From: an uncultured Neomegalonema sp. | GTDB taxonomy: Bacteria; Pseudomonadota; Alphaproteobacteria; Rhodobacterales; Rhodobacteraceae | Assembly (NCBI GenBank): GCA_937958625.1 | Contig: CALGNO010000125.1 | Span: 1-48,014, forward strand | Direction of reading: 5' to 3' | DNA: 48,014 nt | Shown: positions 226-14,124 of the stretch, piece after piece | How the letters are laid out: every line of letters starts with the position of its first letter | Position numbering within the stretch: position 1 is the stretch's first letter | Translations under genes and position numbers: made by a program | The notes under the pieces: generated by a model | What the model saw: the letters and a program-made list of their open reading frames with translations, nothing else | Database searches by the model: none | Told to the model about the DNA's origin: nothing

Positions 226-2334
226 TTATGCCGCCTTGCTACTTGCTTCGAGGGACACGAGGTCCACCGGCTGTGTGATGAAATCATTCGAGATTTCGTG
301 GGGGGCTAGGACCGGAAAGTGCAGGTCGCTGCCCGCGAGAAAGTTTCTCACGCGGCGTCGAAGATCGCCCGAGACGACGATGGCCACCTGTTTGCTGCCG
401 AAATTCTGACCGATCCAGATGTCGCGAAACTGTGCAAGAATCGACTCCGAAATCGTATCGGGAAGAATGATGCCATCATTCGATTGATCGGCGTCGGGCC
501 GTTTGAAATTCGCGATGCCCTTGCGCATTTCCGCCTCGACCGCCGGATCGACCATCACGACCCCGAGCACCTGATCCGACCCGGCGATGCGGTGGCAAAG
601 CTGACGCTTCATGGAGCCACGCAGGCACTCGGCAATACTCAGCGACGTCGGATTCTCCGCCGTGTTGATCCAGTAGTGGAGGGAGTTCAGCAACAGGGAG
701 AGTGGCCTCAACGGAACGCCGTCTTCGATCAGGTATCGGAACATCTTGAACATCGCGATGTCATTCATGTCATCGCGGACAAGCTTGGTTGCTTCGGGTT
801 CTTCGGCGGTCATCGCGTCCATCAGCTCCGTGAACACGGCATTGGAGAACAGCGTCCCCATGTTCCGCTCGTAGAGGCGGAAGGCCAGATGCGCGAGCGC
901 ACTTTCCAGCGCGACGGGTTTGAGATCGAGCGCGCGCAACTTCGCGCTCTGGTTCTTCGGAAGCCATGCGCCGCGCATCGTCGGCCAGTCGAATGCCTTG
1001 ATATTCGGATTCGACTTGCGCAGCGCGAGGGCAAGATCGTGATCCGGCACCAGCATCGATCCAAGCTCGAGCCTGTCGCTGAAGACCGGAACCTCATCGA
1101 GTTCAACGACCACTTCATTCGGCGCAAGGCGCGTTGACACGTCGCAGCTGGCCGTCGGAAACCGGATACCGCGCGCTGCATGGAGCATATCGAAGAATTC
1201 AGCGAGGCGGGTCTGCAAATCATCCTGATCAATCGCCGCTGCCACATCCGTGCCGATAAGCAGGCGGAAGCGCGTGCTGACGGTCCGCGCCCGATCCGAA
1301 TTGTCGTCCTTTGTCCCCGCCGGCGTGGTGCCACCCGGTGCGGCGCTGTTCATCCCTTGCTTGGCCGCGTCAGCAGCATCGGCATCTTCCTTGTCGGACA
1401 ATAACTGTCGCCGCAGCAAGACCGCTCCCACGAGCAGGATAAGCGCCAGAACAAAGAAAACCGAGGTCGGAAAACCGGGTATGAACCCGATACCGATGAC
1501 GATGAATGCGGCCACGGTTGGCACGCGCGGATCGGAAACCAATTCCTTGAAAATATCGGTGCCGAGGTCGCTGGTTTCGCTGTTGGCAACGCGCGTGACG
1601 ACGATACCGGCGCAAAGCGACATCAGCAGAGCCGGAATTTGAGCCACAAGACCATCGCCAACGGTGAGCAGCGAGAACACCTCCACCGCCTCGCCGAAGG
1701 AATAGCCATGCACGCTCATGCCCACGCCGATACCGCCGAGCAGGTTGATGCAGATGATGATGAGGCCGGCGATGGCATCACCCTTGATGAACTTCATCGC
1801 GCCGTCCATCGCGCCGAAGAACTGGCTGTCTCGATCAAGGCGCTTGCGGCGGGTGGCGGCCTCGTCCGCCGTGATCGAGCCGTTACGCATCTCGGCGTCG
1901 ATGCTCATTTGCTTGCCGGGCATGGCATCGAGTGCGAAGCGCGCCGCTACCTCGGCCACACGCTCCGCGCCTTTGGTGACGACAAGGAACTGCACGACGG
2001 TGATGATCAGAAAGATCACCAGACCGATGACGACCGACCCCCGCACGACAAAATCGCCGAAGGTCTCGATGATCTGACCCGCATCCGCCTCCGACAGAAT
2101 AAGCCGCGTCGTCCCGATTGACAGCGCAAGGCGAAACGCCGTGCCGATCAGGATGACCGAAGGAAACGTAGAAAAATCGGAGGGGTGTTTCAGGTAAAGG
2201 GCAACGACGACAAGCAAGACGGCGAGCGAAATATTGAGGGCGAGAAGCATGTCGATGACGGTCTGTGACAGCGGCACGACCATGAGCGCCAGGGTCGCAA
2301 CGATCACCGCGACAAGAACAAGATCTTTGCGCAT
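226..2334 (-). CDS. sctV: Type III secretion export gate protein SctV
   Basis: This 702-residue inner-membrane protein is the FlhA/SctV export gate, which forms a nonameric ring and binds chaperone-substrate complexes during proton-driven secretion. The N-terminal half (about residues 5-320) is strongly hydrophobic with several membrane spans. The FHIPEP family signature lies at about residues 131-152 (ARFALDAMPGKQMSIDAEM). A large soluble C-terminal domain follows from about residue 350. Length fits the family. A GGGAAG ribosome-binding site lies just before the ATG. It is separated from the sctJ-U operon by a LuxR-type regulator gene. I call it SctV rather than FlhA because its neighbours include the injectisome lipoprotein SctJ and SctK, and no flagellar gene is present. 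Confidence 0.95.
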   Translation of the reverse strand: MRKDLVLVAVIVATLALMVVPLSQTVIDMLLALNISLAVLLVVVALYLKHPSDFSTFPSVILIGTAFRLALSIGTTRLILSEADAGQIIETFGDFVVRGSVVIGLVIFLIITVVQFLVVTKGAERVAEVAARFALDAMPGKQMSIDAEMRNGSITADEAATRRKRLDRDSQFFGAMDGAMKFIKGDAIAGLIIICINLLGGIGVGMSVHGYSFGEAVEVFSLLTVGDGLVAQIPALLMSLCAGIVVTRVANSETSDLGTDIFKELVSDPRVPTVAAFIVIGIGFIPGFPTSVFFVLALILLVGAVLLRRQLLSDKEDADAADAAKQGMNSAAPGGTTPAGTKDDNSDRARTVSTRFRLLIGTDVAAAIDQDDLQTRLAEFFDMLHAARGIRFPTASCDVSTRLAPNEVVVELDEVPVFSDRLELGSMLVPDHDLALALRKSNPNIKAFDWPTMRGAWLPKNQSAKLRALDLKPVALESALAHLAFRLYERNMGTLFSNAVFTELMDAMTAEEPEATKLVRDDMNDIAMFKMFRYLIEDGVPLRPLSLLLNSLHYWINTAENPTSLSIAECLRGSMKRQLCHRIAGSDQVLGVVMVDPAVEAEMRKGIANFKRPDADQSNDGIILPDTISESILAQFRDIWIGQNFGSKQVAIVVSGDLRRRVRNFLAGSDLHFPVLAPHEISNDFITQPVDLVSLEASSKAA

Positions 2335-2527: not shown

Positions 2528-3214
2528 TCATGCGTGGGCGCAGTGCGTGATGTCACACCGCCGATCCCCGGCACCCCAATATTTCATCGTGCTCGCTATC
2601 TCGGTCAGTTGTTCGAGGGCCTTGTAGCCGGTTTTCTTGTAGATCGAGTTCCGGTGCGCCTCGACCGTGCGTATCGAAATCTCGAGGCATTCCGCTATTT
2701 CTTTTGCCGTCTCGCCCGCGACCGTCGCATTGATGACTTCGACCTCACGCGAGGACAGACCGTAGAGATTGCCCGTGCGCATCACATTGCGTTGCAGCAC
2801 CGTAAATTCGGCAATGTATTCGCAAGGAACGGATGAATATCCCAACTCGGCGGCGCGCACGGCATTGACGAGATCGACCACACGCGCGTCGCGCGGGACA
2901 AAGGCGATGGCACCGCCGGAAATCAGCATGAACGCTTCGCTTGGTGTGGATTCTTCCGCGAGGATGACGACGCTGACATCCGGCGTTCTGCTGCGCACTT
3001 GCTGGAATACTTCCAGCCCCGTCGGGACGGTAAAGCACATCCCCATCACCAGAATATCGGGGGAGAGTTCAGTACATGCATTGATCGTCTCATTGCCATC
3101 CGAGGTTTTCGCAATCACGGAATAGCCGAACTCGCCCGCCAGTTTCGCGGCGACGCCCTCGCGAATGAGCTCGTAATTATCGGCAACAATAACGGTGGTT
3201 TCTGATGTCATCAT
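2528..3214 (-). CDS. LuxR/NarL-type regulator with degenerate receiver domain
   Basis: A 228-residue protein with an N-terminal receiver-like domain (about 1-120) and a C-terminal LuxR/NarL helix-turn-helix (about 150-215, with SSREVEVI and ISIRTVEAHRNSIYKKT). It is clearly paralogous to the regulator at 11209-11841. The receiver lacks the phospho-switch: the phosphoacceptor Asp is Gly58 (codon at 3041-3043), the conserved Lys is Arg108 (FVPRD), and the switch Thr is missing (VVILAEES). It therefore probably acts independently of phosphorylation. The start at 3214 is inferred. An in-frame TTG at 3238 exists, but the GGAG before it is better spaced for a 4-codon mini-ORF at 3225 whose stop overlaps this ATG. 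The gene sits between sctU and sctV, so a role in T3SS control is likely. Confidence 0.88.
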   Translation of the reverse strand: MMTSETTVIVADNYELIREGVAAKLAGEFGYSVIAKTSDGNETINACTELSPDILVMGMCFTVPTGLEVFQQVRSRTPDVSVVILAEESTPSEAFMLISGGAIAFVPRDARVVDLVNAVRAAELGYSSVPCEYIAEFTVLQRNVMRTGNLYGLSSREVEVINATVAGETAKEIAECLEISIRTVEAHRNSIYKKTGYKALEQLTEIASTMKYWGAGDRRCDITHCAHA

Positions 3215-3225
3215 ATGAACTTCAT
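3211..3225 (-). other. Leader mini-ORF (MKFI-stop) coupled to regulator start
   Basis: Reading the minus strand, GGAG at 3236-3233 is followed 7 nt later by ATG AAG TTC ATA TGA. The TGA (3213-3211) overlaps the regulator's ATG (3214-3212) in the arrangement ATATGATG. This fits translational coupling or reinitiation setting regulator levels. The alternative is that the regulator starts at the in-frame TTG at 3238. Sequence alone does not decide. Confidence 0.35.
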
Positions 3226-3286
3226 AATAATTCTCCAATAAGATGATCGTCCCTCATTTACGAAAGAAGGCGCATAGTGATCGGTG

Positions 3287-3328: not shown

Positions 3329-4387
3329 TCACTGCGCACCCTTGGGATCGAAAATCTGGACGAGCGCCCGATCGAACGCGCCGAGATGCTCGGCTCGTAT
3401 CGCGTCACCCAGATCATAGCCGCGAAGACGATCGACCATTTGCTGCGATTCAAGCTCACGTCGCCGGGGCCCCTCCATTTGTTTACGGAGTTCGAGGACG
3501 TTCTCCGGCCCGCTGACTTTGCCCACAACGAACGGCACAGTTTCTTTTGGCGGCACGAAGCGGACCGCGACGGCAACGTCCTTGGTAAAGAAGCAGAACT
3601 GGGCGTTCTCGACCCCCGGTGCCGTGTGTTGACCGCCGGGACCGTATTTCGACCGTAACCGGCGGCGCTCTTTTCTGACTTCGGCAGAGCCGAGCTGATC
3701 CTTGCGCTCTCGTTTGACCTCGCTCTTGGTCATTCGCTGTTCGTGCATGAACTGGTTCTTCTGGATCACCGCTTCGATCGCACCCGCAACAAGAATGATG
3801 ATGATGGCGAGGATCACCGCTATCCAGGCGAGGGGCTGGAACAGCTGGGCAATGCATGTCGTGTCGCAAAACGGCGACGAGATGAACTCCGGCAGCCAGA
3901 CATAGCCGACGATACCGACAAAGAAGAACCAGACGATCAAGCGTCCAGAGGAAACACCGAATTCTAGCCAACCCCGCCGGCCATAGACCCGCTTGATGCC
4001 CTGGTTCATGGAAACCCGCGATAGTTTCGGCTTGACCGGATCAAGCGAGAAAACGACACCGCGATTGTACAAGAGGGTCACGACCACAGCGACCACGAGG
4101 CTGACACCGACGATGGGTGAGATCACCACAAACAGCACCCTCGAAAGCTGTGACAAGCCGAGCGCCAGAACGTCTTCGATCGCCGCTTCCTTGAAGTTCA
4201 TCGTGTCGACGATCGACTGCGCGAGGCGGTGAAAAATAATACTTCCCAGCGCGACAAGGCAGATCAGGCCGACGGCATTCGCAAAAAGGCTTGCGATCTC
4301 CTGACTCGGTGCCACCGAGCCTTTCTGGCGTTGTTTGACAAGTTTCTGCTTACTTGCGGTTTCGGTCTTGGCTTCGGTATCACTCAT
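3329..4387 (-). CDS. sctU: Type III secretion switch protein SctU, NPTH motif lost
   Basis: A 352-residue protein of the FlhB/SctU family, which sits at the export gate and in most systems cleaves itself between Asn and Pro of an NPTH motif to change substrate class. Residues about 30-210 hold four membrane segments. A charged linker follows (KSEVKRERKD, 221-230), then the cytoplasmic domain (RRLRSKYGPGG). At the expected NPTH position the protein reads FTKD (267-270, codons 3578-3589), followed by VAVAVRF, which aligns with the conserved segment after NPTH. No frameshift is seen and the downstream domain is intact. Autocleavage by the known mechanism should therefore be impossible. The start overlaps the sctT stop by 4 nt (ATGA). 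Confidence 0.93.
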   Translation of the reverse strand: MSDTEAKTETASKQKLVKQRQKGSVAPSQEIASLFANAVGLICLVALGSIIFHRLAQSIVDTMNFKEAAIEDVLALGLSQLSRVLFVVISPIVGVSLVVAVVVTLLYNRGVVFSLDPVKPKLSRVSMNQGIKRVYGRRGWLEFGVSSGRLIVWFFFVGIVGYVWLPEFISSPFCDTTCIAQLFQPLAWIAVILAIIIILVAGAIEAVIQKNQFMHEQRMTKSEVKRERKDQLGSAEVRKERRRLRSKYGPGGQHTAPGVENAQFCFFTKDVAVAVRFVPPKETVPFVVGKVSGPENVLELRKQMEGPRRRELESQQMVDRLRGYDLGDAIRAEHLGAFDRALVQIFDPKGAQ

Positions 4388-5196
4388 TCGAAGAATGCCC
4401 GGAAGAAATCGAACCCGTTCGCCGAGGCGCTGACGATGTCAGAATTCACGATCCAGATGATATACGTCATCATCGGCAACAGCAGCAATGCGGTGAGATT
4501 TTTCAGCAGGAACGACATTTCATAAAACCGGAAACGTCGACCGATGCGGCCTGCAATCGCCAGTGAAAAATCAACGAAGACAAGAATGACGAGCAGCGGC
4601 AGGGCGGTCTGGATTGCCAGCCACAATGTGAATCCCAACGCTTCGAGCGCAACGTCCGCCGCACCCGGTTGCAGCACCGGGAAAACGCTGAGCAACGGCC
4701 AGATCTTATAGCTGTCATAGAGCAGCGACACCGTGATCCAGACACCGCCCGCGTAGGCGAACGCGGCCAGGCCGATCAGTTGGAACAGCTTGGCAAGCGA
4801 TTCCATCGTCCCGTCATTCGGTGCCTCGAACCCACCATCGGACTCGCCCTTGTATGTCGCCACGATACTGCCCGCAAAGCGCAGCGCGAAGAAGGGCAAT
4901 GACAGCACGAAACCAAGCAACAGGCCAAGGCTGATTTCCTTAATGGCCACCAGCGCGAGGGGCGCGATGGCCTTGCTCGCGGCCAATGTTGCGAGGTCGG
5001 GCGCGACTGCGGCGAGGGTCGGAAGGCCAAGGGCAAAAGCGACGCCCATCCGTATCATCTGGCCCTGACCAAAGGCCCACATGAACGGCACGAAACCGAA
5101 CAACAAACCAACGGGCCGCAGGACGCCCACGAGCAGAAATATAACGAGTACGTGGCCGCCCTGATCTGAAAGGATGCGGATCAGCTCCGGTATCAT
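4384..5196 (-). CDS. sctT: Type III secretion export apparatus protein SctT
   Basis: A 270-residue, multi-spanning inner-membrane protein of the SctT/FliR family. With SctR and SctS it forms the helical core of the export gate. Hydrophobic segments cover most of the length (for example 15-45, 70-105, 130-160, 175-215, 230-255). The loop KGESDGGFEAPNDGTMES around residues 118-135 is typical of the family. It starts 1 nt after the sctS stop and its stop overlaps the sctU start, as expected for stoichiometric co-translation of R-S-T-U. Confidence 0.93.
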   Translation of the reverse strand: MIPELIRILSDQGGHVLVIFLLVGVLRPVGLLFGFVPFMWAFGQGQMIRMGVAFALGLPTLAAVAPDLATLAASKAIAPLALVAIKEISLGLLLGFVLSLPFFALRFAGSIVATYKGESDGGFEAPNDGTMESLAKLFQLIGLAAFAYAGGVWITVSLLYDSYKIWPLLSVFPVLQPGAADVALEALGFTLWLAIQTALPLLVILVFVDFSLAIAGRIGRRFRFYEMSFLLKNLTALLLLPMMTYIIWIVNSDIVSASANGFDFFRAFFE

Positions 5197-5197
5197 C

Positions 5198-5473
5198 TCA
5201 ATATTTCACGATCATATCGAAATTCGAAAACACATCCTCCGCCGATGTCATCAGGGGCGCGGACAGGGATGTGCCGAGGGCAAGCAGGACGATGACGATT
5301 GCGACGATCTTGATCGTCTGGGCAAGCGTCTGGTCCTGAATCTGCGTGATCGCCTGAAAGAACGAGATGATGAAACCGATCAAGGTCGCAACGGCAAGCG
5401 GCACACCCGCGAGGATCGAAATGTCGAGCATAAAGCTGACCAGATACGTCCCGAATGTTGCGCCCTCGGTCAT
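5198..5473 (-). CDS. sctS: Type III secretion export apparatus protein SctS
   Basis: A 91-residue protein with two membrane helices, of the SctS/FliQ family, which contributes to the export-gate core. The motif GVPLAVATLIGFIISFFQAI, followed by TQIQDQTL, is diagnostic for the family. I place the start at 5473 (MTEGATFG), 4 nt after the sctR stop. The longer frame from 5533 would add 20 non-homologous residues overlapping sctR. The C-terminus ends in FDMIVKY. Confidence 0.94.
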   Translation of the reverse strand: MTEGATFGTYLVSFMLDISILAGVPLAVATLIGFIISFFQAITQIQDQTLAQTIKIVAIVIVLLALGTSLSAPLMTSAEDVFSNFDMIVKY

Positions 5474-5477
5474 CGCG

Positions 5478-6119
5478 TCAGACCTGATACGAGAGGAGAA
5501 GACCCTCGACCATCCGCGCCCAGCCATCGACATAGACGAAGAGCAGCAATTTGAACGGGACCGAAATGATGTTCGGCTGCACCATCTGCATTCCCAGCGC
5601 CATCAGGATCGTCGTAACCGAAAGGTCGATCGCTACGAAGGGAAGGTAGAGCAGAAAGCCTATCTTGAAGGCTTCGGTCAGCTCGCTGATGATGAAGGCA
5701 GGCAACTGGATGATGAAATCGTCCGGGTCGCCAACGATGCCGCTGCCCGCCCAGAGGTCGGTCGCGGTCTGCGTGAAAAAGTCGATATATTCCGGGTCGA
5801 TGTGATTGGAGATAAAGCGCTGGAATGGCGCGACCGCAGCATTCCATATCGCAACCAGCCCATCGACCGTATCGAATGTTAAATCAGACGCGTTCACGGC
5901 ATTCAGAGCTTCCCGGAACACCGGCATGGAGACGAATACCGAGAGCAAGATGGCCAGCGTCAACAGGATCATGTTCGACGGAACCTGCTGAAGGCCGATG
6001 GCCTGACGCACGATCATGAAGACGACGGACAGCTTGACGAAAGACGTCAAGGTCATCACCCCGAGCAGCATAAGGCCGGAGGCCGCGACGACAACGAGGG
6101 GACTGAAGGAAGTTTCCAT
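5478..6119 (-). CDS. sctR: Type III secretion export apparatus protein SctR
   Basis: A 213-residue membrane protein of the SctR/FliP family, the main component of the export-gate core. Hallmarks are the early segment TSFVKLSVVFMIVRQAIGLQ, the segment LPAFIISELTEAFKIGFLL, and the conserved block IDLSVTTILMALGMQMV near the C-terminus. Length and segment order match the family. It follows sctQ by 7 nt and precedes sctS by 4 nt in a tightly packed operon. Confidence 0.95.
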   Translation of the reverse strand: METSFSPLVVVAASGLMLLGVMTLTSFVKLSVVFMIVRQAIGLQQVPSNMILLTLAILLSVFVSMPVFREALNAVNASDLTFDTVDGLVAIWNAAVAPFQRFISNHIDPEYIDFFTQTATDLWAGSGIVGDPDDFIIQLPAFIISELTEAFKIGFLLYLPFVAIDLSVTTILMALGMQMVQPNIISVPFKLLLFVYVDGWARMVEGLLLSYQV

Positions 6120-6126
6120 TGCGTTC

Positions 6127-7176
6127 CTACGTGATCGACGTGATCTGAATGCCGACCTGGTCGCCTGACCGGACGATCATGCCCGTGCACACGGCGCGGT
6201 CTGCTTTGATCAGGCGGATGGTGTCTTTCGGAAGCTCGCCGAATGCGTAGGGCTCCCCATTTTCCATCGCCTTCAGCGTTTCGACGGGGATCAATGTGCG
6301 CGCCACTTCCACGCGCAACTGAGCGAGGCCATCCTGTGCCATACTGCAAGGCGGTTTCGTACCGGCCATTGCCGTAGGGTCGAGCCGGGTGAAACCGGAA
6401 ACTGCGCTGAGCATCCCGTCTTTCAGCACGACATCCGCAACCGCGCGGTCAGCGACGACAAGACGGTACTGCGCCGGATTTTCCCAATCCTGGTCGGGCA
6501 TAAACACGTCATCGACGGTCATCGAGGCAAGATCGGACCCGGAGATTTCGAGATCATGCGTGAGCAGGCAGCATTCCAGATCAATGTCCTCTCCCGGCTC
6601 TTCATCCGCGCCGGACCCGCCTTCCTTGGGTTTGAACAATCCGGCAATCGCGGCGCTCGCCTGCGCCTCTCCTTTGATCGCGAGAAATGTCTCGCCGGAG
6701 GGTGCGCCTTCTATGCGCATGACGATTGCGTCGTCATCGGGCGTGGCTCCGACCTTGCGGGCGGTGTGCTTGGTGACGGTCAGGGCGTTCGCCGACAAGA
6801 CATTGGCAAGGCTGTCGAGGGCGGGGCGCGCCAGATGTTCGAGGATGAGTGCGCTCGCATCGGCGGGGTAATCTGCCGAACCGCTGGCATAACCGTTCTG
6901 CGAGAGCAAAGCGGCAAGCATATCCGTGCCCGCCCAGACCTCGATCTCGGGGCCGTCGTCGAGCAAGAGTTTCGTGAAGCTTTGAAAGTCGATCTCGGGC
7001 CGGGAAACAGGGCCGTGCAGGGTGAAGGTATTGTCGCCCATGCGATAGTCGAAAGTGACCGGTTCGAAGGAAGGCTGGTCGGACGGTGCGCGGGACAGCC
7101 CCATCTCGGACAGAAGCGCGCTCCAGTCTACCGGCTGTGCCGCTGACGAATCGGTCGTTTTATCACTACCGAGCAT
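6127..7176 (-). CDS. sctQ: Type III secretion sorting platform protein SctQ
   Basis: A 349-residue protein, identified mainly from its C-terminal SPOA (FliN/FliM-like) domain at about residues 285-349, with the typical VARTLIPVETLKAMENG, GELP and SGDQVGIQITSI elements. The N-terminal part is weakly conserved, as usual for SctQ. The family forms cytoplasmic pods that select substrates. I choose ATG 7176 (MLGSDKTTD), which overlaps the sctO stop by 11 nt. The frame stays open up to 7254, but that would extend deep into sctO. Many SctQ genes also make a short C-terminal product from an internal start; I cannot confirm one here. An acidic insert (EEPGEDIDLECC) lies mid-protein. Confidence 0.85.
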   Translation of the reverse strand: MLGSDKTTDSSAAQPVDWSALLSEMGLSRAPSDQPSFEPVTFDYRMGDNTFTLHGPVSRPEIDFQSFTKLLLDDGPEIEVWAGTDMLAALLSQNGYASGSADYPADASALILEHLARPALDSLANVLSANALTVTKHTARKVGATPDDDAIVMRIEGAPSGETFLAIKGEAQASAAIAGLFKPKEGGSGADEEPGEDIDLECCLLTHDLEISGSDLASMTVDDVFMPDQDWENPAQYRLVVADRAVADVVLKDGMLSAVSGFTRLDPTAMAGTKPPCSMAQDGLAQLRVEVARTLIPVETLKAMENGEPYAFGELPKDTIRLIKADRAVCTGMIVRSGDQVGIQITSIT

Positions 7177-7663
7177 CCGGCTTTTTCCAGTGCTGCAATT
7201 CCTGTAGATCATCCTCTTCGCAAATATCCGTTTCGATACCCTTAACCATCTCAACCTGCGCGATCATCTCTTTGATGCCGTCAATTTTGCGCGTTTCGGA
7301 GATCAGCACCTTTGCGGCACCGGAGCGCGTTTCCCGTGCGTCACCAAGCCGTTTTCCCAGACGCTGCTCGACCAGCGTGGCACGCGCGACCGCCCGTTTT
7401 GCGTTGGCACTGCCGAGCATGACGCTCTGAACACGGTCGCCGAAATGAGAAACCTGTCCGCTGCGAGCTAAGCGTTTAAGAAAATAATCGTCAGCGTTCT
7501 CTTGAGTTTCAAGACGGTATCTGTGGGCATCATCCCAGAGCTTGTTGATCTGCTGTTCGGCCCTGATGGCGGCTTTCACCCCGAGTTCGGCGACATCACG
7601 TTTCGCCACGCGGATACGGATCAGCTTCGCAAGCTGTCGGTCGCGTATGCTATTCTCGGCCAT
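7166..7663 (-). CDS. sctO: Type III secretion stalk protein SctO
   Basis: A 165-residue, highly charged and mostly helical protein, placed directly after the ATPase gene where SctO (YscO/FliJ-like central stalk) always lies. The sequence is predicted coiled coil across most of its length, with dense Arg/Lys/Glu heptads such as AKRAVARATLVEQRLGKRLG. The family links the ATPase to the SctV gate. Assignment rests on position, size and coiled-coil character, because sequence conservation is low. The start shares one base with the sctN stop. In Ysc-type clusters the next gene is the ruler sctP; here sctQ follows immediately. Confidence 0.8.
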   Translation of the reverse strand: MAENSIRDRQLAKLIRIRVAKRDVAELGVKAAIRAEQQINKLWDDAHRYRLETQENADDYFLKRLARSGQVSHFGDRVQSVMLGSANAKRAVARATLVEQRLGKRLGDARETRSGAAKVLISETRKIDGIKEMIAQVEMVKGIETDICEEDDLQELQHWKKPDAR

Positions 7664-8976
7664 TACGTCTGCGCCCGGTTCAGACTCGTGCGCGTTTTCA
7701 GCAGTGTTGAATGTTCATCGACGCCCTGTTGCAGAAACTTGAGAATTTTCGGCATGGCGGCGATGGCCGCATCGGCTGCAAGGTCCAGTTCGGCGGTGTA
7801 TTCGCCAATTTGGAGAAGCAGTTCGACCTCGGCATACTTGGCCAGATGCGCACGCATCTGCCGCGCGCTTTGCATGTCCTTGCCGCGCGTCACCTTATCC
7901 ATGATGCGACTGAGGCTTTGGAGCATATCAATCGCAGGGTAGTGACCGGCATCGGCCAGTTTCGGACTCAACACGATATGACCATCGGTCAGGCTCTTGA
8001 CCTCTTCGGCGATTGGGTCGCCCTGACCGTCATTCTCGACAAGCACCGTATAGATCGCCGTGATGTCGCCCCGCTCGGAACGGCCAGCGCGCTCGATCAG
8101 CGCAGGCAGCGCCGGATAGACCGACGCCGGATACCCCCGACGCGTGGGTGCCTCGCCTGCCGACAAGCCGACCTCGCGCAAGGCCCGCGCCGTGCGGGTC
8201 AGGCTGTCGACCATCAGCAGAACCGATTTGCCGCGATCCCGAAAATACTCTGCGATGGCCGTCGCGCTTTGCGCACAGAGCGCGCGCTCTACCGGCGGGC
8301 GGTCTGAGGTCGAGGTGACGACGATGACCTTCTCGCGCTTGTCGCTGCTGAGATCACGCTCCACGAATTCGCGAACTTCGCGGCCCCTCTCCCCGACAAG
8401 GCCGATCACGACGACATCGGCGTCGGTATGGCGCGCGATGGCCGCAAGAAGCGTCGACTTGCCAGCCCCCGGCGAACCAAAGATCGCCATACGCTGGCCC
8501 TTGCCCATCGTCAGGCAGCCATCAATCGCTCGCAACCCGGTGGTCAGCACCTCGGAGATCAGAGGCCGCGACATGGCGGGGGGAGCATCGGCCTTTATCA
8601 TTTGCGGGTATGTGACACCCTTTATGCCGCCCAGATCGTCGATGGGATTGCCGAGGACATCGACAACGCGCCCAAGCATCTGCTCACCCACGGGGATGGT
8701 GAGCTTTTCCGTGTTCGCAACGACCCGCGCCCCCACCCGAATACCCGTCGTCGGGCCGAAGGGACTCAGGAAAGCCTCCGCCCCATGCAAACCGCTGACT
8801 TCTGCCATAAGGCTGGACTCTTCCGAGCCGATGATTTTGCACAGATCGCCGATGGCGACATTGCCGAGTCCGGCGCGGATTGTCGGCCCTTGCACCGCTG
8901 TCACCCGTCCTTGCGGCTTATGAAGCTGCGCCTTTTCCAGACGGCGGCTCAGGCTAGAGAGGCGTTCGGCTAACAT
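7663..8976 (-). CDS. sctN: Type III secretion ATPase SctN
   Basis: A 437-residue F1-beta-like ATPase that unfolds substrates and strips chaperones at the cytoplasmic face. The Walker A motif GSPGAGKS is at 167-174, the catalytic GLVGERGREVREF block follows at about 197-210, and Walker B is VLLMVDSLTR near 250. The substrate-binding and C-terminal helical regions are intact, including SARQMRAHLAKYAEVELLLQ. Length is normal. The start overlaps the sctL stop by 7 nt. The protein is closer to injectisome ATPases than to AtpD, as judged from GKGQRMAIFG and from its context. Confidence 0.96.
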   Translation of the reverse strand: MLAERLSSLSRRLEKAQLHKPQGRVTAVQGPTIRAGLGNVAIGDLCKIIGSEESSLMAEVSGLHGAEAFLSPFGPTTGIRVGARVVANTEKLTIPVGEQMLGRVVDVLGNPIDDLGGIKGVTYPQMIKADAPPAMSRPLISEVLTTGLRAIDGCLTMGKGQRMAIFGSPGAGKSTLLAAIARHTDADVVVIGLVGERGREVREFVERDLSSDKREKVIVVTSTSDRPPVERALCAQSATAIAEYFRDRGKSVLLMVDSLTRTARALREVGLSAGEAPTRRGYPASVYPALPALIERAGRSERGDITAIYTVLVENDGQGDPIAEEVKSLTDGHIVLSPKLADAGHYPAIDMLQSLSRIMDKVTRGKDMQSARQMRAHLAKYAEVELLLQIGEYTAELDLAADAAIAAMPKILKFLQQGVDEHSTLLKTRTSLNRAQT

Positions 8977-9632
8977 GGCTCGGCGTCGCGTTCTTCCAGC
9001 GCCGCTTCGAGATGATCGATCAAGGCTTGCCGCGTGCCTTCGAAACCAAGCTCGACAAACCCTGCGGCCCCCTCAAGGAAAAGCGTGTCGGCTGGAACAT
9101 CCGGGTCGGGGAGGATCGTACCCACGGCGCTGAAGGTTTCCGGAAATCGCTGGCGCAGACCACTGACCCGCGCATAATCGTCACTGCATACGCGCAAGAC
9201 AAGCTGGTGCGCTGTGCGCATCTCGGCGATACCGACCGCCAGGAGTCGTGTGGTGCGCTCGTCGTCATCCAATTCACCGACAATGCGCTTCACACAGGTA
9301 TCGACCAGTTCGCGAAGCCAGGGAGTCAGTGTTTCAAATTCATCGCGAATCTCTGCCGCTTCCGCCAGCAAATGGACGATATTTTCGCCCTCGGCGGCCC
9401 GGAGCCGTGCCTCTTCAGCAATGCGGTTCTCCTGTTCATAGAGTTCCGCTATGGACTGTTCGAGGCGGGATTTTTCATCCGAGGCAGCAGATGTGATCTC
9501 CTCCGCGCGGGCCTGCGCCTGCGCGATGATCTCCTCCGAGTCGCGGGCCGCCTTTGCGAGCAAGCTCTGCGCCGAAGAGAAATCGGCGGCGGGCACCCGG
9601 CGCGCTCGGTATGTCCTCACCTGCGGCATCAT
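8970..9632 (-). CDS. sctL: Type III secretion ATPase stator SctL
   Basis: A 220-residue FliH/SctL-type protein. The N-terminal half is a long charged helix (about 25-100, with AQAQARAEEITSAASDEKSR and many Glu/Ala heptads). The C-terminal half is the conserved stator domain that binds the ATPase (LRELVDTCVKRIVGELDDDE, and FLEGAAGFVELGFEGTRQA near the end). It tethers SctN to the SctQ pods. The start overlaps the sctK stop, and the stop overlaps the sctN start. Confidence 0.9.
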   Translation of the reverse strand: MMPQVRTYRARRVPAADFSSAQSLLAKAARDSEEIIAQAQARAEEITSAASDEKSRLEQSIAELYEQENRIAEEARLRAAEGENIVHLLAEAAEIRDEFETLTPWLRELVDTCVKRIVGELDDDERTTRLLAVGIAEMRTAHQLVLRVCSDDYARVSGLRQRFPETFSAVGTILPDPDVPADTLFLEGAAGFVELGFEGTRQALIDHLEAALEERDAEPC

Positions 9633-10231
9633 GCGGGCAATGCCTTCAGCGCGGTGTCATCTGTCAGAACGCGCTCGACAATGTCCGCGCGCTCAGCCGG
9701 AAAATCAGACTTGGTTTCCAGGATCGGCAGCAACAGCAACAGCCGATGATACAAAGCCTCGTCGAAGCGTTCGAGCCAAGGGTAAAGGCACATCAGCCCC
9801 TCGGTTGCAAAATCATGATCATGCTCAAGCGCGCCGACCACCGCGCGCGGGCTGTGGTCCTTATAGGCAAGGGCGACGCCGAGGATGGAGCGGTTCGTCA
9901 AGCCATGCCGCTCCCGTGCTTCACGATTCGGCAAAACGGAGGCCAGCACAGGGGCCTTCCACGCGACACCGAGTAGGTAGAGCACGTCCGTGATCTGCTG
10001 ACCGAGCAAGACCTTGAGTATCGCGCCGTCCCGACCCGTCGGCGCTGGCGGCAATGCCTCAGCGACCCGGATACGGCGGAGCAACAGGTCGCCGATGCGC
10101 GAGGCAAATCGATCGTCGGCGAGCAGGGCATCGCTGAGCGCGTTCTCGCGAAACCCTTCTTTCCAAATGGCGACCCAGTCCTGCGAGACCGCCACAGGCG
10201 AGGCGCCCTTGAATGGCATGACGGAAATCAT
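9629..10231 (-). CDS. sctK: Type III secretion sorting platform protein SctK
   Basis: A 200-residue, mostly helical soluble protein between sctJ and sctL. Size, position and features such as LGVAWKAPVLASVLPNREAR and LYPWLERFDEALYHRL fit the YscK/SctK family, which joins the SctQ pods to SctD at the inner membrane. The first codons overlap the sctJ stop by 4 nt. SctK is poorly conserved, so the call leans on context. Its presence points to a Ysc-like architecture and implies that a SctD partner exists somewhere in the genome, although none is in this window. Confidence 0.75.
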   Translation of the reverse strand: MISVMPFKGASPVAVSQDWVAIWKEGFRENALSDALLADDRFASRIGDLLLRRIRVAEALPPAPTGRDGAILKVLLGQQITDVLYLLGVAWKAPVLASVLPNREARERHGLTNRSILGVALAYKDHSPRAVVGALEHDHDFATEGLMCLYPWLERFDEALYHRLLLLLPILETKSDFPAERADIVERVLTDDTALKALPA

Positions 10232-10992
10232 GATCTGCGCTTCCGTGAGGGTTTCGTCGGCGGACGACGAAACAGCAGGGTCAGCGCCCCGGCTAGACTG
10301 ATGAAGCCGAGCACAAACAAAAGCGCGCGCCAGCCGTCGAAGCCAAAGCCCGCCATCTTGAGACCGCTGCGGCCCTTCGGATCGAAGGTCGTCGAGTTCT
10401 GCACAGCAACCGGTTCTTCGGTCTGAAACATCGCGACGGCGACATTGTCGTAATCGAGATTGGGCACGGCATGGGAAACGAGGGATTTGATCGTACCGAT
10501 CCGTGAACTCATATCGGCACCCGGCTCATACTCGATGGAAACCGAAGCCGTTGCGGGCGTCGGCTCTCTGTCGTACCGGCCCTTTGGCTGTGACGTGATC
10601 AGCACCCGCGCCTTGCGGATACTCGAAAGCTCACTCAGGGTGTGCGACAGTTCCTGGTTCAAGGCGTGCAGGTAAAGCGCGTGTTGCTCGAACGGGGTCG
10701 AGACGATGCCCTCGGAACTGAAAACGTCACCGAAGCTCATGAATTTCTCGCCCGGCAGATTGGCAGCTTTCAGAATCGTCACGGCTGCCGGAATATCCAC
10801 CGTCTCGACGGATACCGAATATATGCCATCCTTGTCGCGTTCACGGCTGGCATGAATGTTCGAAGACGCAAGCAGCGCGACCATTTCATTGGCTTCACGC
10901 TCGGCAAGGTCAGAGTAGAGAACCTCCTTGCAACCACTTAGATTGAATAGGATGAAGAAGAGAGCAACAAATCGAATAGTGCGAACTCGCAT
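10228..10992 (-). CDS. sctJ: Type III secretion inner-membrane ring lipoprotein SctJ
   Basis: A 254-residue lipoprotein of the YscJ/PrgK family. The signal peptide ends in the lipobox LSGC with Cys21 as the lipidated residue. Two ring-building domains follow. The family-typical region LPGEKFMSFGDVFSSEGIV appears at about 78-96, and the block after LNQELSHTLSELSSIRKARV is also characteristic. A C-terminal membrane anchor (about 218-240, ALLFVLGFISLAGALTLLF) precedes a basic tail. It is the first gene of the ten-gene operon. AAGGAAGGG lies just before the ATG, and a TACGTAG dyad lies 71-92 nt upstream. Confidence 0.95.
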   Translation of the reverse strand: MRVRTIRFVALFFILFNLSGCKEVLYSDLAEREANEMVALLASSNIHASRERDKDGIYSVSVETVDIPAAVTILKAANLPGEKFMSFGDVFSSEGIVSTPFEQHALYLHALNQELSHTLSELSSIRKARVLITSQPKGRYDREPTPATASVSIEYEPGADMSSRIGTIKSLVSHAVPNLDYDNVAVAMFQTEEPVAVQNSTTFDPKGRSGLKMAGFGFDGWRALLFVLGFISLAGALTLLFRRPPTKPSRKRRS

Positions 10993-11208: not shown

Positions 11209-11841
11209 TCAGAGATTTCTGCCAACTTCGGTAAGCTCTGCAATAGAATTCGTCGAGGTTTTTCGATAGATCGAGTTGCGGTGTGTTTCCACCGTTCGCA
11301 CGCTGATATTCAGCTTGTCAGCGATGTCGCGGGTGTTTTCACCCCGGGTGCTGTACTCGAACACTTCCAGTTCTCGCGGCGACAGCCCGTAGACATTGCC
11401 GGTCTTGGAAATGTTCTTGCGCAGGCTGACGAAGCCTTGCAGGAAGTCGGAGGGCAAGGAGACATATCCATTGCTGACCGAGCGGATGACATTGACGAAA
11501 TCATTACCGGGTGCCTGCTTCGGCACAAATCCCATCGCGCCCTTCGAGAGCAAATTATAAGCTTCGGTCTCGGGAATATTGGACGACGTGATGATGATTT
11601 TCAGCTCGGGTTGGCTCGCGCGTAGTTTCTCGAAAACGTCCTTGCCAGATGGATTCACAATTTCAAAATCCATCAGCAGGATGTCGGGTTCATTCAATCG
11701 ACACAGCTTGAGCGTCGTGTAACCGTCTGCGGCTTGTCCAATGACTTCAAACTTTTTGTCCTTCTCAATCACCAAGGCGATACCGTCGCGTACTATCTCG
11801 AACGTGTTGGCGACAACAATTTTCACGACACCGTCTGGCAT
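11209..11841 (-). CDS. LuxR/NarL-type response regulator of the T3SS locus
   Basis: A 210-residue response regulator with a receiver domain (about 1-120) and a LuxR/NarL helix-turn-helix (about 145-205, with LSPRELEVFEY and ISVRTVETHRNSIYRKT). The phosphoacceptor Asp58 (LLMDFEI), switch Thr85 and Lys108 (FVPK) are present. The N-terminal acidic pair that binds magnesium is replaced by Asn12-Thr13. It is paralogous to the regulator at 2528-3214, which has lost Asp58 and Lys108. GGAG lies 6 nt before the ATG. It lies just upstream of sctJ on the same strand, but a 216-nt spacer with the dyad separates them. No sensor kinase is in the window. Confidence 0.92.
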   Translation of the reverse strand: MPDGVVKIVVANTFEIVRDGIALVIEKDKKFEVIGQAADGYTTLKLCRLNEPDILLMDFEIVNPSGKDVFEKLRASQPELKIIITSSNIPETEAYNLLSKGAMGFVPKQAPGNDFVNVIRSVSNGYVSLPSDFLQGFVSLRKNISKTGNVYGLSPRELEVFEYSTRGENTRDIADKLNISVRTVETHRNSIYRKTSTNSIAELTEVGRNL

Positions 11842-11927: not shown

Positions 11928-13079
11928 TCACTTCGGATCCAACGAAGCACTCGCGATCGCGAACCCGTCTGACCGTCCGATGAACTCGACCTGATAGTTT
12001 CCGCCGGCCTTGAGATCGACAAAAGCGGGACTGATACTGTGACCCCTGCTGAACTCGTATCCAGACAAAAGCTGACCACCACGATCATTGACGCGAATGA
12101 GCAACTTTTGCGGGCTCAGGGCGAGTTGGCCGGTATCCAGATCTCGGACCTGAACGAACACGTCATTGCCCTTGTCCTTGATACCCTTGTGACCGCCCTT
12201 CTCGGCATCGTTGACGGCGCTGTCTATCCGCCCGCCCGTGACGGTGATGAGATGGCGACCGGCGTTCGAGGGTGAGTAGTTGAAGCTCAGCGATTGCCCA
12301 CTGCCCGGCGCCTTATAGTTGCTTTGCGATTTGCCACTGGGAGAAGTCGGATCCCAGAGCATCGCGTCCACATTGTTGCCGATCTTGGTGGTTTTCCAAA
12401 AGCCCGATGACGCCATGTTGAGGGCCGAGACCACTCCCGAATTGTCTGGAGAATCAACCTTCTTCACCGTCTCGGCAACGCTTGGCCGAGATGCAAGATC
12501 CTGTGCGACTATAGCCTCAATGTCGTCGATTTCAGGTGGCGGCGGCGGTGGCGAAACGGTGCTTTCAGGCGTTGATTTTGCTGGCGGCGACGAGGCGCCG
12601 CTGGCAGGGGTGGACGAGCCGCCATCCGTCGATCGATCTGTTTTTGCGACACCCGAATCGCCCCCGTCGGAAGCGGAAGTTTCAGCGCCTCCGCCTGCTC
12701 TTCCTGCTGCCGATTCCATGCGATCTGCGGCGGCGTCAGCCCTGTCGGCGCGCGCCTCCAAATTCTCTGCACGATGGCCGGATTCGCTCTTTGCCTGCTC
12801 ACGGAAATCGGTCGCCATTTCTCTGAATTCGGCGGCCCGACTCTGAAGCCCTGCACTACCGGATTCGCCGCGTGGACGTCGCTCGGCGCGCGCCGGGGCG
12901 GCCTCAGCAGGCGATGCACTCACCTTGCCTTTGTTACCGCTCGCGGTGTCACCGACCTTCGGCGCCATCGGCGCTGGCGGCTTGGAATCGGTCATCGCAG
13001 GCGACGACCCAGACTCTTCTGAAGCCATGACGGCGATCTCGGGGTCCGTCATTTCCGACGAAATGCTTGCAATAGACAT
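11928..13079 (-). CDS. Unknown protein, candidate T3SS substrate with beta-rich C-terminus
   Basis: A 383-residue protein I do not recognise as a whole. The N-terminus (MSIASISSEMTDPE) is rich in Ser, Ile and polar residues, like many type III secretion signals, and it has no Sec signal peptide. Residues about 20-170 are low complexity, rich in Ala, Ser, Glu, Arg and Gly, with a probable helical stretch around 80-115. A linker SPPPPPPEIDD (about 174-184) leads to a beta-rich C-terminal domain from about 210. That domain ends with LKAGGNYQVEFIGRSDGFAI, which loosely resembles carbohydrate-binding beta-sandwich modules. AGGTAGG precedes the ATG. Location at the head of the T3SS locus suggests a secreted effector, tip or surface protein; this is inference. 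Confidence 0.75.
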   Translation of the reverse strand: MSIASISSEMTDPEIAVMASEESGSSPAMTDSKPPAPMAPKVGDTASGNKGKVSASPAEAAPARAERRPRGESGSAGLQSRAAEFREMATDFREQAKSESGHRAENLEARADRADAAADRMESAAGRAGGGAETSASDGGDSGVAKTDRSTDGGSSTPASGASSPPAKSTPESTVSPPPPPPEIDDIEAIVAQDLASRPSVAETVKKVDSPDNSGVVSALNMASSGFWKTTKIGNNVDAMLWDPTSPSGKSQSNYKAPGSGQSLSFNYSPSNAGRHLITVTGGRIDSAVNDAEKGGHKGIKDKGNDVFVQVRDLDTGQLALSPQKLLIRVNDRGGQLLSGYEFSRGHSISPAFVDLKAGGNYQVEFIGRSDGFAIASASLDPK

Positions 13080-13158: not shown

Positions 13159-14028
13159 TCAAATATCCTTCAGTCCGCGCTCTCGTCGGACGACCTCTGC
13201 GGTGACCAAGTCATCCTGTTCGATCTGCTGCATCTGATCCTCGACGTAAGTCGACACGATCATGTCAAAGATGGACTTCTCGAACTCTTGGAAGACGACC
13301 GTGTAGCCCTCCTCGTCCAGCTCGAGCCCTTGGTCCGCAGCTTCGAGAGTCAGAATAAGCTCGTTAGAGTCTTCGGCGACTTGATCGGTTTCTTCTTCGG
13401 TCAGGCCTTCTCGAACCGTCAACGTGCCCGGCTCATCATCTTCGGGACGCTCCAGGACGAAGTTTTTCCCGCCGAACACCTCGGTTCCGTCGTCCTTGAC
13501 ACCGATGGGCGTTGCAACCGCCTCGGATTCAGGTTCGATCTCGCCCCCGAAAGACGCCTTGAATGTTCCGACTTTTTCTTCGCCGACGGGGCTGCCATCG
13601 CCCGGATCAGTCAGTTTTCCGAAGTCTGGTGCCTCGGTGGCGAGGGCGACCTCCGCCTTTCGGATGAAGTCAGAAGCAGAGGAGAGTGCCTGGCCTGCGC
13701 GAGATTCGTCGGGCAATGACGAGGCCGCCTCAGCATGTGAGGCTGCCGCTGGTTCCTTGAAGATTTTCGACGCTTTTGCCTTGGGGTCGGTGTCCAGAAA
13801 GTTGGCAAACCCCTCGTTCAGGAGCTCGACACGGTCGATCTGCGTCCCTGCCGCGAGCGCTTTGCCCGTCCCGGGCACTTGATCTGGTCCACTGACGCCG
13901 GTCGTTAGTTGGTTCAATGCATCCATGCCCCCGCCGAGGCCGGAGGCGAAAGCCGAGAGTGGCTCTTCCGCTTGCCGCAATTCATCGAATCGTGCCTCGT
14001 CCGGCAAAATTCCTGCTATTCTCGACAT
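13159..14028 (-). CDS. Unknown acidic protein at the head of the T3SS locus
   Basis: A 289-residue soluble protein with no Sec signal and no membrane segment. I do not recognise the family. The N-terminus is MSRIAGILPDEARFDELRQ. Residues about 30-130 are Ala/Ser/Gly-rich. The C-terminal third is very acidic, and the last 60 residues look helical (FEKSIFDMIVSTYVEDQMQQ). AGAAGGA at 14037-14043 is 8 nt before ATG 14028, which decides this start over the in-frame codon at 14067. The CTACG box cluster lies 97-122 nt upstream. Possible roles are a secreted substrate, needle/rod-associated protein, gatekeeper or ruler. I see no T3S4 ruler domain and no clear SctW pattern. Confidence 0.75.
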   Translation of the reverse strand: MSRIAGILPDEARFDELRQAEEPLSAFASGLGGGMDALNQLTTGVSGPDQVPGTGKALAAGTQIDRVELLNEGFANFLDTDPKAKASKIFKEPAAASHAEAASSLPDESRAGQALSSASDFIRKAEVALATEAPDFGKLTDPGDGSPVGEEKVGTFKASFGGEIEPESEAVATPIGVKDDGTEVFGGKNFVLERPEDDEPGTLTVREGLTEEETDQVAEDSNELILTLEAADQGLELDEEGYTVVFQEFEKSIFDMIVSTYVEDQMQQIEQDDLVTAEVVRRERGLKDI

Positions 14029-14124
14029 CGAAAATATCCTTCTTTCTATCCAATGCGACTCGAACACATCACTTCTGTGGTCTTAGAAGTATCGAGAATG
14101 GCGCGGGGGTTCTCTTGGGGAAAA

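Follow-up and report, generated by a model that had tools for sequence, protein, structure and literature searches.

The window, by which we mean the whole stretch of 48,014 nucleotides analyzed here, is an entire contig (C125) of a draft genome that is 87% complete and comprises 258 contigs. It carries a type III secretion system (T3SS) gene cluster with intact frames in the order SctV, response regulator, SctU, SctT, SctS, SctR, SctQ, an ORF at the SctO position, SctN, SctL, SctK, SctJ and a response regulator. The contig ends 225 bases beyond SctV, so the cluster may be seen only in part on that side. The features are as follows:

226..2334, minus strand: SctV (PF00771, 2.8e-177; TIGR01399, 640 bits against a cut-off of 692)
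2528..3238, minus strand: LuxR-type response regulator between SctU and SctV (PF00196, PF00072)
3329..4387, minus strand: SctU, 352 amino acids, ATG start, without NPTH (PF01312, 6.8e-47)
3332..3634, minus strand: C-terminal cytoplasmic domain of SctU, kept, past the linker, approximately residues 252-352 (alignments)
3578..3589, minus strand: FTKD (F267-T268-K269-D270) at the position of the cleavage motif NPTH (alignments)
4384..5196, minus strand: SctT (PF01311, 7.1e-25)
5198..5533, minus strand: SctS, start uncertain (PF01313, 9.8e-16)
5478..6119, minus strand: SctR (PF00813, 2.7e-53)
6127..7254, minus strand: SctQ, start uncertain (PF01052, 1.2e-5; TIGR02551, 1.1e-7, under its cut-off)
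7166..7663, minus strand: SctO-position ORF, 165 amino acids (assigned by position and by homology to the same ORF of some relatives)
7663..8976, minus strand: SctN ATPase (PF00006, 2.8e-80; PF18269, 1.2e-18)
8970..9632, minus strand: SctL stator (TIGR02499, 4.1e-17, under its cut-off)
9629..10231, minus strand: SctK (PF09482, 3.3e-6)
10228..10992, minus strand: SctJ lipoprotein (PF01514, 3e-28)
11209..11841, minus strand: another LuxR-type response regulator (several relatives have homologues of it close to sct genes)

The SctO-position ORF has no credible family match among the Pfam and NCBIfam profiles. Two ORFs beside the T3SS (11928-13079 and 13159-14067, minus strand, 383 and 302 amino acids) possibly encode secreted or accessory proteins; neither has a credible family match or a homologue among the fetched loci of relatives. 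A genus mate has a 2,499-amino-acid open frame (L101, 10434-17933, minus strand) that lies approximately 7 kb from its sctV and might be a large secreted protein, and a radical SAM protein (PF04055) is found with smaller ORFs near the sctV of a relative (L159, 1262-2941, minus strand).

The sctR, sctS, sctT and sctU genes are consecutive in the window, the last adjoining sctT in the export-gate operon. The SctU product belongs to the SctU/FlhB family by its score against PF01312 (160.8 bits, cut-off 24.4), and falls below the equivalog level of its top NCBIfam model, TIGR01404 (153.4 bits, cut-off 358). Its cleavage turn lacks the Asn-Pro of NPxH and reads FTKD instead. A sequence-only reading of the locus had placed FTKD at residues 267-270 of an intact frame, which translation, the PF01312 score and the alignments confirm. 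The alignments show a turn with one residue fewer than NPTH and with no Asn; conserved residues flank it, with A272, V273, P279 and P285 following downstream in frame. The continuation of the frame through FTKD into conserved residues rules out a frameshift as the cause. At the equivalent position the SctU proteins of the nearest relatives display FHGE, FFDD, FYGD, YHRE and YSKD. The literature describes NPTH autocleavage of SctU as the step that allows the machine to turn from needle or hook building to late cargo (PMC7064499), and one paper regards the motif as shared by every known homologue. At the NPTH site, HrcU, EscU and SsaU remain uncut once Asn is replaced by Ala (HrcU, PMC3040844; SsaU, PMC6168863), which upholds the earlier argument that Asn-Pro autocleavage in its known form is impossible here. 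The system is thus either without that switch or equipped with another one.

The absence of the motif extends well beyond the window. SctU/FlhB matches are present in 13 of the 14 genomes of the genus, 19 in total: NPTH is absent from all 15 non-flagellar SctU and kept in all four FlhB-like copies, the two groups being separated by sequence. The family search gave matches in 153 of 394 genomes, of which the best 28 new loci (L020-L047) were read. Among 47 loci of the same genome, genus and family, best matches only, 27 are without NPxH and 20 possess it; the latter (18 NPTH, one NPVH and one NPKH) comprise FlhB-like proteins and a few other types. All ten named loci from a scan of genome contigs are without NPTH, most of them being genes already counted among the genus and family loci, and a scan of viral contigs gave no match. 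The class and phylum searches sampled 385 and 398 genomes, from which 17 and 20 places were fetched. Small-genome alphaproteobacteria have an SctU with NPTE (L091, 2291-3334; L092, 3446-4492), where Asn-Pro is kept and Glu replaces His.

Plasmid-borne systems include the best known members of the NPTH-less set. None of the first nine plasmid SctU (eight alphaproteobacterial, one from Halomonas) has NPTH, a share that is not a rate, as the plasmid SctU are the listed matches of NPTH-less queries. The nine are from Rhizobium etli Mim1, Bradyrhizobium guangxiense, pNGR234a, pNGR234b, Bosea, Paracoccus kondratievae, Sinorhizobium meliloti, Halomonas and Ensifer. RhcU of S. fredii NGR234 is without NPTH, and the T3SS of NGR234 is functional: it releases NopX, NopL, NopP, NopB, NopC and NopA, the last being the pilus subunit. 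Nine further plasmid SctU/FlhB (L134-L141, L143) are more mixed. Those of P. sanguinis, B. barranii and M. amorphae are without NPTH, and in that of R. etli CFN 42 the entire switch domain is missing. The other five keep NPTH: the flagellar-type L135 and L137, those of Nitratidesulfovibrio and Mycetohabitans, and L138 from a Bradyrhizobium japonicum plasmid. The T3SS of L138 is placed outside the NPxH-less branch, so rhizobia as organisms can carry either kind.

A tree was built from concatenated SctR, SctS and SctT plus the front (transmembrane) portion of SctU alone, so that the columns of the trait itself are excluded; it places a single branch between 32 rows without NPxH and 19 rows with it (51 rows; ultrafast bootstrap 100, SH-aLRT 98). 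The earlier premise that NPTH is nearly invariant in SctU therefore does not hold, as one whole branch is without it, and the alignment of related genomes proposed at the time reveals a clade-wide loss of the site. The NPxH-less branch as a whole, rather than a named subgroup of it, unites the window system with the systems of NGR234, Bradyrhizobium, Mesorhizobium and R. etli (100/98). The flagellar-type rows L064, L135 and L137 fall on the NPxH side, which makes a loss of NPxH simpler than a gain. The tree of the SctU front part (78 rows, 40 without and 38 with NPxH) shows one change (SH-aLRT 89), and the SctV tree also needs one change, with a split support of only 64 and long-branch warnings. 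The SctV tree placed 13 loci with an unread SctU, eight on the NPxH-less side and five on the other, and later reading of their SctU agreed in all 13 cases, in six of which SctU and SctV are located on different contigs and were paired by genome and best match. The FlhB-like proteins from the genomes of these loci keep NPxH without exception (14 of 14: 13 NPTH and one NPEH). The concatenated trees leave out near copies (L107, L119, L140), loci whose genes duplicate those of the window, L048 and L142 (L001, L002, L071), and loci with neighbor genes outside the stretch (L057, L072, L075, L076, L077). The SctV tree leaves out L095-L098, taken as FlhA, along with L107 and L119, and the SctU front-part tree leaves out L094, L107, L119 and L140. 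Two labels need comment. The aligned site of the L060 SctU is QQGP, with NPTG further upstream, and the row was scored by hand as lacking NPxH in all trees; the L094 SctU, cut at the locus edge, was also labeled as lacking NPxH in the concatenated and SctV trees, and the full gene (L172) confirms the absence.

The usual place of SctP, the partner of SctU in the switch, is between SctO and SctQ (PMC3574062). In the window the SctO-position ORF overlaps SctQ and leaves no space for SctP, as in the Rhc family, where the same paper reports no hrpP/yscP-like gene in any subgroup; the absence of SctP in rhizobia is also described in PMC3973906. In all 28 systems measured in the NPxH-less branch, 1015-1733 bp separate the SctN stop from the SctR start, with no SctP-position ORF: the gap contains the SctO-position ORF and SctQ, or SctQ alone in three R. 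etli-type loci. These three loci (L118, L119, L140) have no SctO-position ORF either; SctQ comes immediately after SctN, and the gap is 1015 bp. The same gap measures 1876-2297 bp and contains one extra ORF in five of five measured NPTH systems, which come from four genomes outside the class and include two near copies. The tree contains 16 non-flagellar rows with NPxH; in the other 11 the needed genes lie outside the available stretch. Six SctP-position ORFs of NPTH systems gave two good SctP-family matches (SPAN, 7e-21; HpaP, 1e-24), one weak match and three unrecognized sequences; the ORF preceding SctQ in L138 has no profile match. PF02120 was rejected as a test for SctP absence, having found none of the five SctP-position ORFs of four NPTH control genomes. 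Since SctP diverges fast and PF02120 is insensitive, the absence is established at the SctP position only, and SctP could be located elsewhere in the genomes.

These observations make it likely that the Rhc-like T3SS lineage lost the Asn-Pro site of SctU once, long ago, together with the loss of SctP or because of it. The correlation between the losses of NPxH and SctP rests on one evolutionary event. In Xanthomonas, binding of the SctP protein HpaC requires the NPTH residues N264 and P265 (PMC3040844), a dependence that would explain why SctP and the site disappeared jointly. The first switch of the SPI-2 system requires both SsaP and SsaU cleavage (PMC6168863); losing one half of the switch makes the other useless, which also fits a joint loss. 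The alternative that survives best is a switch carried by an unrecognized SctP analogue, whose target would be either uncut SctU or SctV. This option is brought up in a review of the rhizobial systems (PMC3973906), and SctP families are so divergent that three of the six ORFs at the known position went unrecognized. However, no ORF occupies the SctP position in any of the 28 systems and the HpaC-binding motif is gone, so we consider such an analogue unlikely.

Part of the branch has gone further than the loss of the motif. G1004 has a system of the R. etli CFN 42 type; in its genus, 13 of 60 genomes encode an SctU of 265 amino acids, at 16 places in all, and the protein ends where the switch domain would start. 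The annotation of R. etli CFN 42 p42d also gives a truncated SctU, and no separate gene for the SctU C-terminal domain was found in the R. etli-type loci. The eight truncated copies compared are all 265 amino acids long, with dN/dS of 0.06-0.24 in 26 of 28 pairs (dS > 0.1) and of 0.44 and 0.50 in the other two, which have fewer changes: the truncated stub is under purifying selection. Among 11 pairs of full-length members, seven gave dN/dS of 0.06-0.33 for the C-terminal domain, several of them at a dS exceeding 1. For the window subtype dS is saturated in both pairs, which are 44 and 62% identical in the C-terminal domain, compared with 61 and 71% over the front part. The domain is constrained in the subtypes computed and absent from the R. 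etli type, which suggests that it serves some function in most members read but can also be lost.

Constraint on the C-terminal domain, in the subtypes where dN/dS is computable, would also be consistent with an SctU that is still cut, elsewhere or by another protease, so that the switch persists in a modified form. SsaU N262A yields other fragments in vivo, as was reported earlier for YscU N263A (PMC6168863). By contrast, the turn varies in sequence and length even between relatives, unlike a processing site, the window turn contains no Asn, and the domain that would be cut is missing from the Rhizobium stub. We regard residual cleavage as distinctly unlikely.

The genome of the window contains three SctU/FlhB homologues: the window SctU, an SctU on contig C230 and an FlhB on contig C27. 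The second of these is part of a T3SS of another subtype (L048, contig C230, 8-6115) and has IDGD at the site. The earlier suggestion of a second, NPTH-bearing sctU that serves the system finds no candidate here, as the C230 SctU is also without NPTH and the sole NPTH homologue found is the FlhB, with FliK on the same contig. That this FlhB serves the window T3SS is very improbable: it does carry NPTH, but the FliK on C27 marks it as flagellar, and sctU resides in its own sctT-sctU operon. Moreover, three genus mates that are 94-99% complete (G002, G011, G013) have an NPTH-less SctU but gave no match to FlhB at E 0.001 and none to FliK. A sequencing error hiding NPTH, a chimeric assembly or a decaying gene might be suspected in a draft of 258 contigs at 87% completeness, and is already refuted, with next to no probability left, by the open frame, the intact neighbors and the same loss in independent relatives. 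The missing NPTH of the window SctU is thus confirmed as real, neither an error nor a local oddity.

Among characterized systems, the window is closest to the Rhc T3SS of subgroups I-III (Gazi 2012, PMC3574062; Tampakaki 2014, PMC3973906), which share its SctR/S/T/U branch. NGR234 and the window have the common core order J-K-L-N-O-Q-R-S-T-U, and both the Rhc T3SS and the window are without SctP at the usual place and without NPTH in SctU. The window differs from Rhc in its host lineage, Rhodobacteraceae, and in an SctU that is 25.8-30.8% identical to the 30 plasmid SctU among the matches listed; a secretin and nop-like genes, if present, fall outside the contig. No SctC secretin was seen in the 87% complete draft genome. 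The only PF00263 secretin found there (L164, contig C113, 1333-3462, minus strand) adjoins a Tad pilus CpaE-like frame, as judged by eye. A secretin split into RhcC1 and RhcC2 characterizes the Rhc family; ORFs of 225-247 amino acids approximately 0.3-15 kb from sctV in three relatives appear RhcC1-like by eye, with a Pfam Secretin_N match (E=0.087) in only one of the three. SctD of the Y4yQ type lies outside the window; the PF23893 scores of relatives are 33.9 bits in L053 (cut-off 27) and 22.9 bits, below it, in L050. With the autocleaving SctU/FlhB proteins (YscU, SpaS, EscU, HrcU, FlhB) the window SctU shares PF01312, the sctT-sctU linkage and a homologous C-terminal domain, but it differs in the absent NPxH, the shorter turn and an SctP partner that was not found. 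Another non-flagellar T3SS type occurs in the same bacterial family (L062, 8410-9543; L063, 10087-11202), but its SctU keeps NPVH in L062 and NPTH in L063 and falls outside the NPxH-less branch; L063 has a full-length secretin and an HrpJ-type gatekeeper. The T3SS family and the rhizobial absence of SctP are already known. The loss of NPTH from SctU across the branch is apparently unreported: we found no account of it for RhcU or the Rhc branch in a literature search largely outside subscription journals, although specialists may know of it, and PMC3574062 makes no mention of NPTH, cleavage or a switch.

Under the preferred reading, an early loss of the Asn-Pro site with SctP, both halves of the switch would have disappeared from the lineage, SctP being the needle-length and specificity-switch protein that partners SctU. 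Comparison of the sequences suggests that SctU is no longer cleaved, that the SctP/SctU switch no longer operates and that cargo is ordered in an alternative way. SctU may act as a permanently uncut component of the export gate, with essential gating provided by its transmembrane part and linker. The cytoplasmic domain would be an uncut docking or structural surface in most members read, deleted in the R. etli type. Timed expression, chaperones, SctV or the sorting platform would probably set the order of early and late cargo, unless cargo is scarcely ordered. The sequence-only reading was thus right that the known autocleavage is missing, and it misplaced the emphasis in suspecting a peculiar apparatus: the trait is common to the Rhc-like branch, including the working system of NGR234.

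A bolder form of the conclusion seems to us evenly balanced between true and false: that a major and functional T3SS branch dropped the SctP/SctU switch entirely, losing the site and SctP once, and that Rhizobium went on to shed the whole switch domain. If true, type III secretion and pilus assembly can run with an SctU cut down to its membrane helices and linker. The NPTH-less branch, NGR234 included, offers natural counter-examples to a self-cutting step supposed to be universal, along with natural deletions of the whole domain. Such systems permit a direct test of the purpose of cleavage and of the ordering of cargo without it, and these machines probably order their cargo another way.
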